Under the pieces are notes generated by a model, which saw only the letters and a program-made list of their open reading frames with translations, had not been told where the DNA came from and did no database searches. The position numbers were made by a program, and so were the translations under genes. 64,000 nucleotides of DNA from Chloracidobacterium sp. GTDB taxonomy: Bacteria > Acidobacteriota > Blastocatellia > Chloracidobacteriales > Chloracidobacteriaceae. The first letter of the stretch is position 1; every line of letters begins with the position of its first letter. Below, in pieces: positions 15,114 to 38,755 of the stretch. The stretch spans positions 62,001 to 126,000 of the forward strand of contig JANWUV010000009.1 in NCBI GenBank assembly GCA_025057975.1, given 5' to 3'.

Positions 15114-16052
15114 TTAGACGATGTCGCTGGCGTCGGCGTTGCGGATGAAAAACTCTTCCAACGCCGATTTGACCGGCGTAATGGAGACAAGCCGCCCGCC
15201 ATGGCGACGCAGTTCAGCTAGGGCGTCGCCGACCTCGTCCGCCGACTTGAGTTCGCAGTGCAGTCCGGCGGCGGTTTGGCGCAGTCGCGCGGCGTATCTC
15301 TGCAGAGCTTGGACGGTTTCAGGTGTTGTTTCCGTAGCGACAATTTCCAGTGTCGCTGACCGTCCAGCTTGAAGCTCCGCTAGGGTGCCGTACGCCACGC
15401 GCCGTCCCTGTTTGAGGATGGCGACGCGGTCACATAAAGCCTCCACATCGGACAGAATGTGTGTTGAAAGGAACACCGTTTTGCCGCGATCGCGTAAGCC
15501 GGCGATGATGTCCCGCACTTCGCGGCGTCCGATAGGGTCAAGCCCGGTCATCGGTTCGTCTAGGAAGACCACTTCGGGGTCGTGCAGGATGGCCTGGGCG
15601 ATGCCGATGCGTTGGAGCATGCCCTTGGAGTACTTGCGCAGCGGACGATTGGCGGCGTGCCGCATCCCGACCAGTTCGAGCATTTCCTCGATGCGCCGCG
15701 CGCGCCGGTCGGCGTCCATGCCGCAGAGCCGGCCGAAGTAATCCAGCAGTTCGCGTCCGGTCAAATAGTCGTAAAAGTAGGGCGTCTCCGGCAGGTAGCC
15801 GATTCGCCGACGCATGGCAACGTCATCCAGCGGACGACCGAGGATGCGAGCTGTTCCGCCGGTCGGATAAACGATGCGCATCAGGATTTTGAGCGTCGTC
15901 GTTTTTCCGGCGCCGTTGTGGCCGAGGAAGCCAAATACTTCGCCTTCGTAGACTTCAAGACTGACATCCTCAAGCGACTTGACACGCTTGTTGCGCCAGA
16001 AGCCGGTGACGTACTCCATTGAGAGCCGTTCGATTTCAACAACGGGTCGCAT
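15114..16052 (-). CDS. ABC transporter ATP-binding protein (ABC-2 exporter type)
   Basis: The 312-residue protein is a single nucleotide-binding domain of the CcmA/DrrA/NatA class. Walker A is GHNGAGKTT at 44-52, the signature is YSKGMLQR, Walker B is VVFLDEP followed by [12 protein letters not shown], and the H-loop is STHILSDVE. After about residue 220 comes the DUF4162-like C-terminal extension typical of ABC-2 exporters. No ABC-2 permease is adjacent: the next gene on the strand is a methyltransferase and the upstream gene is divergent. Its membrane partner must therefore be encoded elsewhere. Substrate is unknown. Confidence 0.9.
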
Positions 16053-16165
16053 GTAGGCCTAGGCCGCCGAGGATTTTCGGTGCGTTGTTTGTGGCGCTCG
16101 CAGTATGGTGAAAGCAGGTGGTCGGTTCAACCGCCGTTTTGCGTCAGGGCAGGAGGGGGGTGGGT

Positions 16166-16882
16166 ATGAGTTTGTTGTCGCCCACGGTCTGGGTGATTCA
16201 TATCGCAAGCGTCACGGAGTGGACCTTGGCGATAGGTTTGGCGTGGCGGTTGGGTGCGGCGCTGGGGCGAGTGGATGTCCAACGGTTGGCCGTGGCGATG
16301 TTGCCGCACTGGGGGGCGGGGTTGTGCGTTCTTGCGTGGCATGCGACGAATGACGCGCCGGATGTGATGTGGCTTCCACGGACGCACGAGCTGCTGACGC
16401 TTGTTGGAAGCGTTGGGCTGGCGACGGCGGCGCTGCATTTGCGTGAATGGGTGCGGCGCTATCCGCGTTTTGTTTTGGTGCTGACGGCGGCGGCGGCGCT
16501 AACGGTCGGCGGCTTCCTGTTGGCGCGGGCGTGGCTGCCCTATGGCGGGACGCGCGGTGCGATGATCCAAGCAGCCGGACTCGCTTATGCGCTGTTTGTC
16601 GTCTTTCTGGCGCTGAATCGGCGGTGGGATCGGGAGGCGTTCAACGTCCAGACGATTGTCGGCTATGGGTTGCTGATCCTGTTCGTCGTTGTCACGATAG
16701 CGTTGAGCGGTGTCGCCCGAACGGTTTATCGCGCACCTTCGCTGACGCATGTGGACTGGCTGCACGGCGTCGCCGAAGGGACGATGACCGTTGCCAACTT
16801 AGTGTTGGTGTTGGGTTTACGCCGGTCGCTCCGGTCGGTGGAAGCCGCCGCCGTTCCGACGGCGACCATTGCGCCGGCTTGA
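16166..16882 (+). CDS. Membrane protein fusing DUF2499 (Ycf49-like) and DUF3593 domains
   Basis: The 238-residue protein has about six to seven hydrophobic segments. Residues 5-85 resemble DUF2499 (Ycf49-like): WVIHIASVTEWTLAIGLAWR, MLPHWGAGLCVLAWH and LTLVGSVGLA. The C-terminal part resembles DUF3593: YGLLILFVVVTIALSG, then SLTHVDWLHGVAEGTMTVAN and LVLGLRRSLR. I know both families from cyanobacteria and plastid-bearing eukaryotes, where they are small separate proteins of unknown function. The domain assignment is from memory of their consensus and was not searched. AGGAGGGGGG directly before ATG selects this start over a leader 16 codons longer. It is divergent from an ABC ATPase gene and precedes tRNA-Arg. 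Confidence 0.75.
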   Translation: MSLLSPTVWVIHIASVTEWTLAIGLAWRLGAALGRVDVQRLAVAMLPHWGAGLCVLAWHATNDAPDVMWLPRTHELLTLVGSVGLATAALHLREWVRRYPRFVLVLTAAAALTVGGFLLARAWLPYGGTRGAMIQAAGLAYALFVVFLALNRRWDREAFNVQTIVGYGLLILFVVVTIALSGVARTVYRAPSLTHVDWLHGVAEGTMTVANLVLVLGLRRSLRSVEAAAVPTATIAPA

Positions 16883-16918: not shown

Positions 16919-16992
16919 GCGCCCGTAGCTCAATTGGATAGAGCATCAGACTTCGGATCTGAGGGTTGGGAGTTCGAGTCTCTCCGGGCGCA
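16919..16992 (+). tRNA. tRNA-Arg (anticodon UCG)
   Basis: A full cloverleaf of 74 nucleotides folds. The acceptor arms gcgcccg and cgggcgc pair, the D-arm follows (agctcaattggatagagc), the anticodon stem is caga/tctg with loop cttcgga, and the T-arm contains gttcgag. The anticodon TCG reads CGA and related Arg codons. The 3' CCA is not encoded. The gene lies in the gap between the DUF2499-DUF3593 gene and the convergent DUF445 gene. Confidence 0.96.
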
Positions 16993-17237
16993 CTCCACTT
17001 CGTTTCCACAAACCTTCCCAAACCCGCACAAGCCCAGTCAAAGTCAAGCCTCGCACCTGACCGCTTCTATTTTGCCGCCGGAACAAGTTTCCGTTGGATG
17101 CTTGCCGGGCTCGTGATTTGTTCTTGTTAGGGCGCGAGTTAGGGTGAGAGACAGGAACGACGCAGGGGAAGCGGTGTTGGGCACAGTAGGGGCGCTGGCG
17201 AAGCCGGCCGTCCGGTCGCCTAGCAAGAGCCAGACGC

Positions 17238-18092
17238 CTATGGCCCAGCGAAGGTGCGCCACAAGTTGACGCTCGTTTGCAGGACGCCGACGACCAAACC
17301 CACATACGTTCCAAACGTCATAATGCCCCGTAGCTCGCGGCCGGCGGTCTCATAGACGAGACTTTCAAAGATGTCGTTCGAGAACGTCTCAAAACGACGC
17401 TTGATGATGCCCCGAATGTCCAGCCGCTCGCTAAGCCGCCGAACAAGATCCTGGGCGATCCGCTTCTGAAGCGGACGTTCGCTGGAAAAGATCGCCTCCG
17501 GCAACCGCCGCAGCGCCTCATCAACGACTTCCCGAATCGCCATACTCTCGGAAAGTTGATCGGCAAGCTCATTGATGGCGCGGTCAACAATGCGGTACAC
17601 CAAAGCGTCGCCGACCAGAAACGTCGCCGTCTGGCGTACCGCCGGGTGGTAGTCCCGCTCTAACCGCCGAACCACAACCGCCCGCAACTCATGGGCGATC
17701 CGCCACTTGGCCTCCGAAGAATGCTTCAGCGTGGCAAGCATCTCCGTCATCCGACCGGCGACCAGCGGCAACAGCGCGTCGGACTGCGACCGCTCGGCGT
17801 AGCGCGAACGCGCCAGCCGCTCCACATCGGCGTCAAGGCGCAGTTCATGGAGTGCGGCGGCCAAGATGTCGGCGGTCAGCAGTTTTTCGGCGATGACGCC
17901 GGCCAGCGCGTCCACAAAACGGTCGCGCTCCGCCGGTAGTAGTCCCGGCGTGAACGGCAACTTCCAGCCGAAGAGGTACACCGGCTTGAGCGGGCGGAAG
18001 AGCATCTTGACCGCCAACCAAGCGGCCCCGTAACCGTGCGCCGTGGCGATGACCAGCGGGCTGCAATCGGAAAGCAAGCGCAGAAGGTTCAT
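17238..18092 (-). CDS. DUF445 family membrane protein
   Basis: This 284-residue protein belongs to the DUF445 family (YheB-like). It has an N-terminal hydrophobic segment with the conserved NWLAVKMLFRP-type sequence (here AAWLAVKMLFRPLKP) and GWKLPFTPGLLPAERDRF. A long predicted helical region follows, and then a C-terminal hydrophobic anchor (MTFGTYVGLVVGVLQ). The architecture of two membrane ends and a helical middle, and the length, are normal for short members. Function is not established for the family. It is transcribed away from the orphan permease gene, separated by 164 bases. Confidence 0.83.
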   Translation of the reverse strand: MNLLRLLSDCSPLVIATAHGYGAAWLAVKMLFRPLKPVYLFGWKLPFTPGLLPAERDRFVDALAGVIAEKLLTADILAAALHELRLDADVERLARSRYAERSQSDALLPLVAGRMTEMLATLKHSSEAKWRIAHELRAVVVRRLERDYHPAVRQTATFLVGDALVYRIVDRAINELADQLSESMAIREVVDEALRRLPEAIFSSERPLQKRIAQDLVRRLSERLDIRGIIKRRFETFSNDIFESLVYETAGRELRGIMTFGTYVGLVVGVLQTSVNLWRTFAGP

Positions 18093-25503: not shown

Positions 25504-25978
25504 CGCCCCTTCCACGAGCGCACCGCTGGTGTGCAGGTTTGAGTTGACGAAAACTTGGTGGCACCGAGTTTACCTGCGTGGCTGGGAGAGGCGGCTTGCC
25601 GGTAGGTTTCAAGTAAATCAGCCAGGTCAGAGGGCGAGAGGCCGGAGCGGTCCGGTAGGGCGGCGTCCACGCTGAACAAGTCGTGGTCGAGCTTGGCAAG
25701 CCGTCCTGCCGAGCGGTTTGGGCCACTGTCCACCGCGTGGAAGATTTCTACCTCTGGCGACAAACGCAGGCGAAAGGGTGAGTAGTCCGGCAGGTCGCAG
25801 CCGACTTGGACGCAAAATCAGCGGTCGGTCAGGCAGGGAGAGTTGAGCGAAAGAGTGCCTGGCCTCCATCGCTCTGCGGGAGATGCCGGCGCAGACGGTG
25901 TTTCGTTTTGCAAGCGGGTGCGGTAAAGTGCCGCGTACTGCGACTTTTCTCACATTCTCAACCCCTGCGTCATTGCTC
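25504..25978. other. 475-base intergenic stretch without a recognised gene
   Basis: Both strands were read. Short minus-strand frames exist, one giving an 87-residue translation with a plausible-looking acidic stretch (LAKLDHDLFSVDAALPDRSG). It lacks a ribosome binding site and any family resemblance. The region should contain the promoter for the lycopene cyclase gene, but no clear promoter elements were identified. Confidence 0.55.
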
Positions 25979-27637
25979 ATGAGTCATTCCACGATTCTGC
26001 CGCGTCTTGCCTCATCCACCATTGGTGACGTCTATCCTCGCACCGCCGCCGCGTTCGCCGCCATGCCCGACGGTGAGATGTGGCTTGAGCGGCTGATTGA
26101 ACTAGACGCCAACCGGCGGCGCTTACTGGCTCCGCCGGAGTTGCTGCTTGGCTATGGGCCGCCGGCGGAAACACGGCCGGCGAGCGCCGGAACGTTTGAC
26201 GTCATCATCGCGGGCGGTTGTTTCGGTTTGATTGTCGGCGCCACTTTGGCGGCGCGCTATGGATGGCGCGTTTTGGTGTTTGACCGCCATCAGGTTGGGA
26301 AAACCCACCGTGACTGGAACATCTCGCGCGGTGAACTTCAACGGCTGACGGAGGCTGGGCTGTTTACCGACGCCGAAATGGAAACCTTCATCGTGGCTGA
26401 GTACGACCGGGGTTTCGTCAAGTTTCACGCCGAAGGTTGCTTCCTTGACGCCGACCGGTTGTGGTTTGACGACGTGCTGACATTGGCGGTGTCGTCGGAC
26501 CGACTTCTGGCCCAGTGTCGGCGGAAGCTGTTGCAGGATGGCCGCAGTCAGTGTCTTGACCGGACGACGCTGCAGCGGGTGCAGGTAGAAGAAGGCGGCG
26601 TGACGGTGGATGTGGTTAGTCAGGAAGACGGCCGCAAGCGCTTTCGAGGGCGGCTCTTTATTGACACGATGGGTACGCTCTCGCCTATCGCCCGCCAACT
26701 CAATCCGCGTGAGACGGTGACCTACCTGTGTCCGACGGTTGGAACGATCGCCACCGGCTTCGCCAAGGGGACGGCGGCGGACGAAGTAGACGCGCGGGTA
26801 GGGGAAATCCTAGTGACGACTGAGCATGCGCAGCATGGGCGGCAGTTGTTGTGGGAGGGCTTCGCCGGACGCGATGACGAGTTTACGACGTACCTGTTCC
26901 ACTACGCGCCGGTCGAGGCGATTGATCGGCTGTCGCTGCTGGCATTGTTTGAGACGTATTTTGAGACGCTGCCGCGCTACAAGCGGCCCGGCGCGGATTT
27001 TGCGTTTCGGCGGCCGGTGTTTGGGTACATTCCGGGGCTGCACCATGTGGGTTTAGGGCCGCAGAAGCGGACGGCGACGCATCGGGTGTTATTGCTGGGG
27101 GATGCAGCGTCGCTGAATTCGCCGTTGACCTTTTGCGGCTTTGGGTCTTTGGTGCGGAACCTGCGTCGGATAACGCACCTCATTGATTTGGCGCTCAAAG
27201 GGAATCATTTGGATGAAAGATCGCTGCGGCTTATCAACGCTTACGAGCCGGGCGTGGCGATTATGGCGGCGTTTACGCGCTACATGGTGGCGGACGAAGG
27301 CGAGGACCCGAAAGCCGTCAACGAATTACTCAACATCGTCATGGAGGCGCTTCATCGGCTGCCGCCGTCTGTCAGGACAGGTCTTTTCCAAGACTGCATG
27401 GGGTGGGGTGACTTTGTGCAGCTGATGCTTCAGATGCAGAAGCTGCACCCGAACATCTGGGAGGCTGTCCCGCGCAAGTTGGGGACGGTGTACACGTCGG
27501 CGTGGGTGCTGAACTTCATCGAGTTTTCATCCTTTGCGTTGCAAAAGCAGCTTGTTGCGTGGACGGGACGGATTGGGCAGGGGCTGCGGGAAGACTTCTA
27601 CAACTACGCCAACTATTACCGATATGCCTTGGTTTGA
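25979..27637 (+). CDS. cruA: FAD-dependent lycopene cyclase of the CruA/CruP family
   Basis: The 552-residue flavoprotein has an N-terminal FAD-binding Rossmann segment (DVIIAGGCFGLIVGATLAAR, then RVLVFDR). The CruA/CruP-type DWNISRGELQRL follows, then RLFIDTMGTLSPIARQL, the ARDDEFTTYLF-like block (GRDDEFTTYLFHY), and LLGDAASLNSPLTFCGFGSLVR where FAD contacts are expected. CruA cyclises lycopene to gamma- or beta-carotene in green sulfur bacteria and cyanobacteria. CruP is its poorly understood paralogue, and sequence memory does not separate the two. Carotenoids are part of the light-harvesting apparatus that the crtB and bchG genes also serve. The ATG used has no strong ribosome binding site. 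The 3' end overlaps the next gene by 14 bases. Confidence 0.72.
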   Translation: MSHSTILPRLASSTIGDVYPRTAAAFAAMPDGEMWLERLIELDANRRRLLAPPELLLGYGPPAETRPASAGTFDVIIAGGCFGLIVGATLAARYGWRVLVFDRHQVGKTHRDWNISRGELQRLTEAGLFTDAEMETFIVAEYDRGFVKFHAEGCFLDADRLWFDDVLTLAVSSDRLLAQCRRKLLQDGRSQCLDRTTLQRVQVEEGGVTVDVVSQEDGRKRFRGRLFIDTMGTLSPIARQLNPRETVTYLCPTVGTIATGFAKGTAADEVDARVGEILVTTEHAQHGRQLLWEGFAGRDDEFTTYLFHYAPVEAIDRLSLLALFETYFETLPRYKRPGADFAFRRPVFGYIPGLHHVGLGPQKRTATHRVLLLGDAASLNSPLTFCGFGSLVRNLRRITHLIDLALKGNHLDERSLRLINAYEPGVAIMAAFTRYMVADEGEDPKAVNELLNIVMEALHRLPPSVRTGLFQDCMGWGDFVQLMLQMQKLHPNIWEAVPRKLGTVYTSAWVLNFIEFSSFALQKQLVAWTGRIGQGLREDFYNYANYYRYALV

Positions 27638-36625: not shown

Positions 36626-37582
36626 TTACGTCCGAAACTGCCAGCGCGCCTGCAGCCACAACCGCGGTAGCGCCCATAACTTGCCGCTCAACGGCACATG
36701 CGCGCGCCGTGAAAACACGTCATAGCCATGACGCTCAATATCACGTAAAATGCCGCCGTACAACCGACTGCTCAAAAACACCGTAAACCGGCTGTCTGGC
36801 GACAGCAGCGGAATACCGCACTCCGCCTCACGGTAAAAATCTCGCGCCCGGCGGATCTGAAATTTCAGCAGCGCAATGACTTCCGGCGTCAGCCGCCCCT
36901 GCAAAATCATTGCTTCTGTACAGCCGAAGCGCCGAAGGTCTTCCAGCGGTAAATAAATCCGGTCCCGCCGGGCGTCTTCGCCGACATCACGCAGAATGTT
37001 CGTCAACTGAAACGCAATGCCGAGCGCCACGGCATACTGCAACGCACTCACGTCGCGGTAGCCAAAAACCTCGCTGGTCATCAGCCCAACTAGGGACGCC
37101 ACCCGGTAGGCGTAGGTATAGAGTTCATCAAACGTTTCAAAGCGGACCGGGCCATCCAGCCGGGCGTCCATCAGGCAACCCTGCATCAACTCCAGTGGGT
37201 GCTCAAGCTTGACGGGAAAACGTGGCAGAAAGTCATACCAAGCCACCAATACCGGATGGGCCGGAAACGGTTCGCCGGCATAGACAGCGCGGAGCGCCTC
37301 CGACCAAGCATTCACGGCGCGCGCGATGTCCTCGGCCGCCGCCCGGCGGTTCGTGTCTACCAGATCGTCTATTCGCCGACAGAGAGCGTAGATGCCGTAA
37401 ATTGCCGGGCGCTTCCAGGCCGGGAGCGTCTGCGTACAAAAGTAAAAGCTTTTGGCGTGCGTCCGGGTTACGTCGCGGCAGTAGGCATAGGCAGCGGCGA
37501 CCTGCTCCGCCTGCGGTTGTTGAATCCGCGCGTAACCTGCAAAGGGGTCGCTGCCAGTGATGACGCCGACGTTGGCTGGCAT
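36626..37582 (-). CDS. crtB: Phytoene synthase
   Basis: CrtB condenses two geranylgeranyl diphosphates to phytoene, the first committed carotenoid step. The 318-residue protein has [19 protein letters not shown], the Mg-binding CRRIDDLVD near residue 68, [32 protein letters not shown] with the second Asp-rich motif, and [10 protein letters not shown]. The frame is open further upstream, but the ATG used ([10 protein letters not shown]) gives the usual length. It is transcribed divergently from bchG, with 162 bases between the starts, and shares its pigment-synthesis context. Confidence 0.94.
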
Positions 37583-37744
37583 GGCGGTCGTGCAACGGGC
37601 GGTTCTGGGGGGCTGCCTGTGCGTGAAAACACAGCGCACTATGGTATAGACTATGCCCTGGCGTCAACGGCGGCGGCTGAGCGCCCTCTGGGTCCGACGG
37701 CGACGCCGGGATGTTTTCATCGAGGTTTTCCAGAAAATCGCTCA
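37583..37744. promoter_or_regulatory. Divergent crtB/bchG control region with two inverted repeats
   Basis: The 162 bases between the two starts must hold both promoters. Two inverted repeats are visible. One is TGTGCGTGAAAACACA at 37618-37633, with TGTG/CACA arms. The other is the near-palindrome GGTATAGACTATGCC at 37643-37657, with seven-base arms and one mismatch. They lie ten bases apart near the middle. They resemble binding sites for a dimeric regulator, although TATAGACTAT could also include a -10 element. The repeats are seen; the regulatory role is inferred. Confidence 0.4.
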
Positions 37745-38755
37745 ATGCCGTCTTCGAATGCGATTGCCCGACCCACGTTTACGCGGGCGCTTCTCACCCA
37801 CATCCAACTGCTTGATCCCGTGACTTGGCTTGGGCCATGGCAGTCTTTTTGCTGCGGCGTTCTGGCGACCGGGCTTCGGTGGTCGGAGGTAACGCCGACC
37901 GATGGGCTAAAGTTTTTCCTTGCCTGTGGACTGATTGGCCCGCTCCTGACCGGCTTCAGCCAATCCATCAACGATTATTTCGACCGCCACTTAGACGCCA
38001 TTAACGACCCCGAACGCCCAATCCCGTCGGGGCGGATTTCGCTGGCGGCCGCCAGAGCCAACTTTACCCTAACGGGCTTGCTCGCGGTCGGCAACATGCT
38101 CGCGCTCTACCTTGTCACCGGCAGCGTGCTGATTTTGGTGTTGGGCGTCGCCGGCCTGCTTTTAGCGTACGCCTACAGCGCGCCTGGTTTTCGGCTGAAG
38201 GAAAACGGCTGGCTGGGCACAACCTCGGTTGGCATTGGCTACTGTTTTGTCCCGTGGCTTTTGGCGGCGCACCTCTTTTCACGCGAGCCGGGAGTGCCGA
38301 CCTTTCATTTGACATTGGGCGTCGTCAACACGCTGGTCGCCATGGGCCTCATTACCATGAACGACTTCAAGTCAATTGAGGGCGACCGCCAGAACCGGCT
38401 ACGGACGCTGCCGGTGCTCTATGGGGAGCGCGGCGCGATGCTCATTGCTTTCACCGAAATCAACCTTGCTCAACTGATCTTTGTCGCTGCCTGTTTTCAC
38501 TTCGGCCACCCGACGATTGGTTGGGTGGGCGTGGCGTTCTTTGTTCCGCAAATTATTCAGCAAGTGCAGCTATATCGTGCGCCGAATGACGCCCGTCTCC
38601 TGACTAGTTTGGGGCGCAACGCCGCCGGACGGTCGCTCATTACTCAGCGTCAGACCGGCGCGCACCCCGGCTTCATTCGTTTTCTGTTCGGCAGTAATCT
38701 GTTTACCGTCACGGCGCTGACGGCGCTGGCCGTGGTTCATGGTTATGGACGATGA
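37745..38755 (+). CDS. bchG: (Bacterio)chlorophyll synthase
   Basis: BchG esterifies (bacterio)chlorophyllide with geranylgeranyl or phytyl diphosphate in the membrane, the last step of pigment synthesis. The 336-residue UbiA-superfamily protein has about eight to nine membrane segments. The prenyl-diphosphate site is QSINDYFDRHLDAINDPERP near residue 75. SAPGFRLKENGWLGTTSVG and MGLITMNDFKSIEGDRQNR carry the second Asp-rich motif. RTLPVLYGERGAML follows, also typical of ChlG/BchG. The frame is open far upstream antisense to crtB, but homologous sequence begins near this ATG. The start has no strong ribosome binding site. A paralogue making a different esterified pigment (for chlorosome pigment, BchK) cannot be excluded from sequence alone. 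Confidence 0.9.
   Translation: MPSSNAIARPTFTRALLTHIQLLDPVTWLGPWQSFCCGVLATGLRWSEVTPTDGLKFFLACGLIGPLLTGFSQSINDYFDRHLDAINDPERPIPSGRISLAAARANFTLTGLLAVGNMLALYLVTGSVLILVLGVAGLLLAYAYSAPGFRLKENGWLGTTSVGIGYCFVPWLLAAHLFSREPGVPTFHLTLGVVNTLVAMGLITMNDFKSIEGDRQNRLRTLPVLYGERGAMLIAFTEINLAQLIFVAACFHFGHPTIGWVGVAFFVPQIIQQVQLYRAPNDARLLTSLGRNAAGRSLITQRQTGAHPGFIRFLFGSNLFTVTALTALAVVHGYGR

Follow-up and report, generated by a model that had tools for sequence, protein, structure and literature searches.

A fused DUF2499-DUF3593 membrane protein in Chloracidobacterium and its possible role in type-I reaction-centre or chlorophyll biogenesis

The fused gene, its surroundings and its occurrence in Chloracidobacterium

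The window analysed here, a stretch of 64,000 nucleotides from a Chloracidobacterium sp. genome, encodes a membrane protein in which DUF2499 (Ycf49) and DUF3593 are joined in a single chain (Table 1). The reading frame runs from an ATG at 16166 to a TGA ending at 16882; a longer frame with a GTG start at 16118 seems less likely. Within the 238-residue product, Pfam profiles matched DUF2499 (PF10693) at 88.1 bits (E 4.7e-25, model positions 2-88 of 89) and DUF3593 (PF12159) at 70.8 bits (E 1e-19, model positions 4-87 of 88), compared with curated cut-offs of 22.1 and 25 bits, respectively. An earlier note on this DNA had proposed that the two families are fused in a non-cyanobacterial phototroph, and these scores, far above chance for both domains, together with the identity of the host, bear this out. 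NCBIfam gave no match to the protein up to E 10. The motif DWLHGxAE occupies residues 197-204 in the DUF3593 half. The gene is present as a single copy in the 3.52 Mb assembly of the host, whose reaction centre we take to be type-I and not type-II.

Table 1. Features at and around the fused gene. Positions are those of the window; residue numbers refer to the fused protein.
Feature	Position	Strand	Basis
ABC transporter ATP-binding protein; divergent neighbour, kept in the genus, outside the system	15114..16052	-	ORF/neighbour comparison
AGGAGG, ribosome-binding-like, nine bases 5' of the ATG	16151..16156	+	read from sequence
Fused DUF2499-DUF3593 membrane protein, 238 aa	16166..16882	+	ORF, Pfam, model
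DUF2499 (Ycf49) half, residues 4-90; helices 6-33, 36-60 (kinked), 69-90	16175..16435	+	Pfam PF10693, model
Linker transmembrane helix, residues 100-123	16463..16534	+	model; mean hydropathy 2.3 over 19 residues
DUF3593 half, residues 133-222; helices 130-151, 161-186, 197-229	16562..16831	+	Pfam PF12159, model
tRNA-Arg(tcg), neighbour	16919..16993	+	

The gene had also been described as lying near other photosynthesis genes, a description that did not fit the locus. Its direct neighbours are the ABC ATPase gene, the tRNA-Arg gene and an ORF at 17238-18092, for which NCBIfam gave nothing and whose product we take to be a DUF445-type protein. Two pigment-type genes lie about 20 kb from the fusion: a (bacterio)chlorophyll synthase inside ORF 37199-38755 (TIGR01476, 235.3 bits versus a cut-off of 212.3) and a phytoene/squalene-synthase relative at 36626-37639, probably crtB, whose best matches fell below their cut-offs. 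At this distance, nearness to photosynthesis genes carries little weight. The ORF at 25883-27637 showed weak likeness to geranylgeranyl reductases. Within the genus, G096, G123 and G165 have the fusion between the same two flanking genes, one of them the ABC ATPase gene.

DUF2499 and DUF3593 were each found in four of the 297 Acidobacteriota genomes searched, all four of them Chloracidobacterium, and both were absent from the remaining 293. Six other Chloracidobacterium genomes also carry the fusion (G096, G123, G165, G297-G299). Three of these six came from a scan of named genomes, under the names 'uncultured Blastocatellia bacterium', 'uncultured Chloracidobacterium sp.' and 'Chloracidobacterium sp. 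CP2_5A', the last of which encodes a fusion 88% identical to that of the window. In one named-genome scan with narrow patterns, all ten matches belonged to Chloracidobacterium or cyanobacteria.

All seven Chloracidobacterium genomes examined contained both the fusion and AcsF, and five contained BchE over the cut-off, split across two contigs in one of the five. Only fragments of bchE were seen in G165 (C2:1047258-1047404) and G299 (C288:115305-115563), one of them with a stop. Since G165 and G299 keep the fusion without intact BchE, the fusion is not bound to BchE, and a dependence on this enzyme, which we had considered, is weakened. The available part of a 2026 species description reports bchE in all strains, with acsF missing from most C. 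aggregatum strains (PMC12816986).

Predicted structure and ancestry

The best AlphaFold2 model, based on 40 aligned rows, reached a pLDDT of 89.8 and a pTM of 0.85 (pLDDT 72.8-81.3 for the other four models) and showed seven helices in a 3-1-3 plan, the second being divided into residues 36-44 and 46-60. Loop charges predicted an N-out/C-in arrangement for both halves in all five row groups, more weakly for DUF3593. Since the two three-helix units are parallel, they can be connected only if the count of added helices is odd, as it is with helix 4. This linker helix is missing from the separate cyanobacterial proteins, each of which has three predicted membrane helices. H12, E18, W19, W58, H59, D197, H200, G201 and E204 were invariant in 58 rows, and the predicted topology would place these residues towards the outer half of the helix bundle.

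No PDB chain was related above chance to the fusion or to either half: the DUF2499 profile matched PsaA best, at E 0.99, and there was no match to the DUF3593 profile. Foldseek returned 751 matches at E up to 10 (best E 1.6e-2, none at or below 0.001; TM-score up to 0.62), the best 50 of which were all GPCRs or rhodopsins. The best match in the fold comparison had a Z of 13.0 and an rmsd of 4.0 over 206 residues, a level common for helical bundles. The 3-1-3 helix plan recalls SWEET transporters; no SWEET transporter was among the best 50 matches listed of either fold search.

There were initial hints of an internal repeat, in that an iterated profile seemed to match both halves and MAFFT once overlaid their third helices. 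An origin of DUF2499 and DUF3593 as paralogues by internal duplication was nevertheless unproven: profile-profile comparison gave E 0.057 and a probability of 1%, and the hhalign score was equalled by 9 of 200 hydropathy-preserving shuffles, in a different register.

The Chloracidobacterium forms grouped as a single clade (100/100) in a 58-row tree, separated from the cyanobacterial forms by a branch of 9.56 changes per column. The best tree set this clade beside the low-oxygen cyanobacterial copies described below with weak support (59/92), and an alternative grouping with Gloeobacterales-type forms was not rejected (p-AU 0.213). With so long a branch and so poorly supported a placement, the tree speaks neither clearly for nor clearly against the earlier suggestion that the gene was perhaps carried by transfer. 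The motif SVTEW is common to the Chloracidobacterium proteins and the bchE-linked copies, which fits this placement, but these copies were found with a pattern that contains SVTEW.

The fusion is not unique. A table in the available part of a 2012 study assigns both DUF3593 and DUF2499 to Thalassiosira pseudonana protein 38514 (PMC3478156). Among cyanobacteria, a contig of Oscillatoriales Centralia_MAG_596 (L020:1495-1947) encodes in frame a DUF2499, a linker as hydrophobic as that of the window protein (hydropathy 2.3 over 19 residues) and the start of a DUF3593 at the contig end. This is probably an independent fusion.

Co-occurrence and gene order in cyanobacteria and plastids

Among 386 genomes of a single phylum, the Cyanobacteriota, which share descent, DUF2499 was found in 182, DUF3593 in 186 (185 over the cut-off) and PsaA/B in 185. 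PsaA/B was present in all 182 genomes with DUF2499 (listed rows compared by eye). Of the 185 genomes with PsaA/B, 182 had DUF2499 and 183 had DUF3593, counting the broken copies in G489 and G574. The same fusion could have proved common in non-phototrophic bacteria, which the earlier note had named as evidence against its reading. This did not arise in the genomes searched: the 293 other Acidobacteriota had neither domain, and the 201 Cyanobacteriota genomes without PsaA/B included none with DUF2499 and two with DUF3593, one copy broken and one match weak.

PsaA/B occurred without DUF2499 in G393, G489 and G513, and DUF3593 outside the DUF2499 set in G453, G489, G513 and G530. Closer inspection covered seven odd genomes. 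In G489 and G574, psaA and psaB were full of stop codons, and the leftover DUF2499 and DUF3593 were likewise broken. G453 had no PsaA/B and a DUF3593 interrupted by three stops, and G530 gave a weak DUF3593 match riddled with stops and nothing more. G393 had PsaA/B without either domain, and G513 PsaA/B with DUF3593 only; G565 proved ordinary, with PsaA/B in two pieces and both domains intact. In Cyanobacteriota, DUF2499 and DUF3593 thus occur with PSI and decay with PSI, the exceptions being G393, G513 and the control genome, Synechococcus elongatus, in which DUF2499 was matched and DUF3593 was not, even at E 10. The S. elongatus result counts against an obligatory pair. PSI, PSII and chlorophyll synthesis are kept or lost together, so co-occurrence cannot tell them apart.

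G489, G574 and G453 presumably resemble non-photosynthetic diatom endosymbionts. With psaA/psaB broken or missing, these genomes may be useful for finding photosynthesis-only genes via shared decay.

The fusion had been read in the earlier note as a Rosetta-stone hint that the separate proteins interact, and the survey of their cyanobacterial neighbours favoured this logic. DUF3593 followed DUF2499 on the same strand within 1.5 kb in 18 of the 30 best-scoring loci (L017, L032-L060), with a 4-base overlap of the two genes in L042, L047, L051, L055 and L058; at the remaining 12, DUF3593 was elsewhere in the same genome. The same order held throughout a small-genome group, presumably picocyanobacteria, that forms one clade in the tree (100/99). 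Here, psaK lay 3' of the pair on the same strand in 23/23 loci (L082-L084, L089-L108), of which the first three came from 20 regions sampled without regard to psaK and the other 20, from genomes that resemble these and score low for DUF2499, were picked afterwards as a test of the psaK link. The distance to psaK was at most 105 bases in 21 loci and about 1.1 kb in two. PF01241 confirmed psaK in L082 and L083, and a profile identified it in the other loci. The psaK profile, iterated from two loci, found none beside the other cyanobacterial loci compared, although a divergent PsaK could escape it.

Elsewhere, a Gloeobacterales MAG has chlD immediately upstream of DUF3593. Genes for CsaB-type polysaccharide pyruvyl transferases stood divergently beside 6 of 20 copies (by inspection of the sequence, and by Pfam for one); this neighbour was taken as lineage synteny. 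In two cyanobacteria, a pentapeptide-repeat protein is encoded 3' of DUF2499-DUF3593 without an adjacent bchE (L086:2614-3390, L015:576-1364). The available part of a plastid study gives the order petL-ycf49-ycf4-trnG-psbE in cyanidiophytes and eustigmatophytes (PMC4603697), and Ycf4 is a PSI assembly factor according to the portion available of a PSI review (PMC11449065).

Two Pseudanabaena genomes and one Oculatella genome contained two DUF2499 copies each, with bchE after the second DUF2499-DUF3593 pair, and a plasmid of Pseudanabaena sp. ABRG5-3 carried such a pair followed by bchE. The gene was directly downstream of the pair in L005, L010, L011 and L012, identified by TIGR02026 in L012, by annotation in L005 and by eye in L010 and L011; psbA was also near the pair in L005 (annotated) and L012 (by eye). 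The second pair of G366 was accompanied by a psbA-type gene, an ArsR-type regulator and a nitronate monooxygenase, with no bchE within the 8 kb examined. On plasmid pA of Kovacikia minuta (L006:6001-6150), a 40-residue DUF2499 remnant was located between a psbA-like gene and acsF, and the cluster continues with ho2-like and hemN/bchE-like ORFs (acsF confirmed, the rest identified by eye). According to the part available of a review, 2 of 37 cyanobacteria have bchE, and chlAII, ho2 and hemN (chlAII-ho2-hemN) form a low-oxygen cluster (PMC4500134). Plasmid searches gave one match with the fused protein, one more with the DUF2499 partner and nothing new with the DUF3593 partner. Viral and phage searches found no relative.

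Possible function and likeness to known systems

We tentatively favour the reading that the fusion unites in one chain the two parts of a membrane factor for type-I reaction-centre or chlorophyll biogenesis. The psaK operon, the plastid ycf4 neighbour and the type-I host lean towards biogenesis of PSI and the type-I reaction centre; bchE, chlD and the low-oxygen cluster lean towards chlorophyll supply. Loading of chlorophyll into new type-I subunits would fit both leanings. Chloracidobacterium would have tied the Ycf49 and DUF3593 proteins together via one extra helix, giving the 3-1-3 plan, and both halves would form one helix bundle with H12, E18, W58-H59, D197, H200 and E204 towards its outer face. 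The bundle would act as a biogenesis factor and not as a stable subunit, possibly helping to load or assemble the chlorophyll-carrying type-I subunits of PSI and of the acidobacterial homodimeric centre. The second cyanobacterial copy might then serve a low-oxygen photosynthesis gene set. The broader proposal, that Ycf49 and DUF3593 constitute a conserved two-part type-I biogenesis factor common to PSI organisms and the acidobacterial homodimeric centre, with a split bundle of two three-helix proteins in cyanobacteria and a second, low-oxygen version with BchE, is rather doubtful. Against a role in biogenesis, psaK adjacency was seen in one clade only, and no photosynthesis gene adjoins the Chloracidobacterium fusion.

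The links to bchE and to low oxygen are as compatible with pigment synthesis as with assembly. The protein could be an auxiliary membrane component of chlorophyll synthesis, passing intermediates at, for example, the E-ring cyclase step (BchE/AcsF), as the four loci where the second copy stands in an apparent operon with bchE would suggest. The Kovacikia remnant inside its psbA/chlAII(acsF)/ho2/hemN-bchE-like cluster, the chlD gene beside DUF3593 in the Gloeobacterales MAG and the presence of AcsF in every Chloracidobacterium genome examined point the same way. However, the persistence of the fusion without intact BchE in G165 and G299 speaks against such a component, the psaK operon gives no reason to expect one, and inspection by eye recognised no pigment gene next to most of 20 copies. 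The available part of one study, moreover, describes the prokaryotic O2-dependent cyclase as AcsF, plus Ycf54 in cyanobacteria (PMC7319587). On balance, we consider it unlikely that the protein is an auxiliary component of chlorophyll synthesis itself.

Two further alternatives were weighed. A seven-helix bundle of 3-1-3 plan with conserved H, E and D residues would also suit a transporter, a channel or a handler of lipids, quinones or metals in the photosynthetic membrane that phototrophs alone need but that has no link to reaction-centre assembly. However, none of the recognised operon partners is a transport gene, and no transporter stood out in the fold search, the best 50 of 751 matches all being GPCRs or rhodopsins; we regard this function as improbable. 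It is more improbable still that the Chloracidobacterium protein has taken on a different function and tells little about cyanobacterial Ycf49. The very long branch (9.56) to the cyanobacterial forms and the absence of a pigment gene next to the fusion are what such a shift would predict, but H12, E18, W58, H59, D197, H200, G201 and E204 were kept in 58/58 rows, and the fusion is found in all seven examined genomes of the genus and absent from the non-phototrophic relatives searched.

A single pair that can be tested emerges from the fusion, the overlap within gene pairs, the psaK operon and the decay shared with psaA/psaB. Through its Chloracidobacterium form, the Ycf49/DUF3593 question extends to an anoxygenic type-I reaction centre. 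These proteins are near-universal in PSI cyanobacteria and, as ycf49, encoded in some plastids, yet neither a functional study nor a mutant of Ycf49, DUF2499 or DUF3593 was found in the open-access literature searched. As far as this search can tell, it is new that the fusion is a fixed trait of Chloracidobacterium and follows a 3-1-3 plan, that psaK and bchE are gene partners, and that the domains decay together with psaA/psaB. Both domains are already known, as is one eukaryotic protein with both (2012).

Ycf3, Ycf4 and Ycf37/PYG7 are families other than DUF2499 and DUF3593. The likeness lies in a proposed PSI assembly role in cyanobacteria and plants, and the portion available of the PSI review describes them as plant factors that are also present in cyanobacteria (PMC11449065). 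Mutants and interaction data exist for Ycf3, Ycf4 and Ycf37, whereas the role of DUF2499-DUF3593 is drawn from the genes. The review considers that further assembly factors likely remain, and 'ycf49' occurs zero times in its text (PMC11449065). CEPA1, a recent plant factor, has no homologue in photosynthetic prokaryotes according to its authors in the available part of their paper (PMC11449006), and is a single-helix protein in the portion available of the review (PMC11449065). In soybean, a chlorosis interval includes the YCF49-like gene Glyma11G028600 with a Q39K change outside the domain; the part available of that report makes no causal claim (PMC13358223).

In the available part of its description, the diatom protein 38514 resembles the fusion in having both domains and multiple membrane helices (PMC3478156), but it is eukaryotic. 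Cyanobacterial Ycf49 is a separate protein of about 100 residues, whereas the Chloracidobacterium form is fused and strongly diverged, with about 25-42% identity between the fusion and either separate half. Cyanobacterial DUF3593, too, is a separate protein, with the probable exception of L020, and is often encoded directly after DUF2499, whereas in Chloracidobacterium it is fused. H12, E18 and W58-H59 are common to the fusion and to the Ycf49/DUF2499 proteins of cyanobacteria, of cyanidiophyte and eustigmatophyte plastids and of plants, and cyanobacterial DUF3593 has the same D-x-LHGxAE motif as the fusion.
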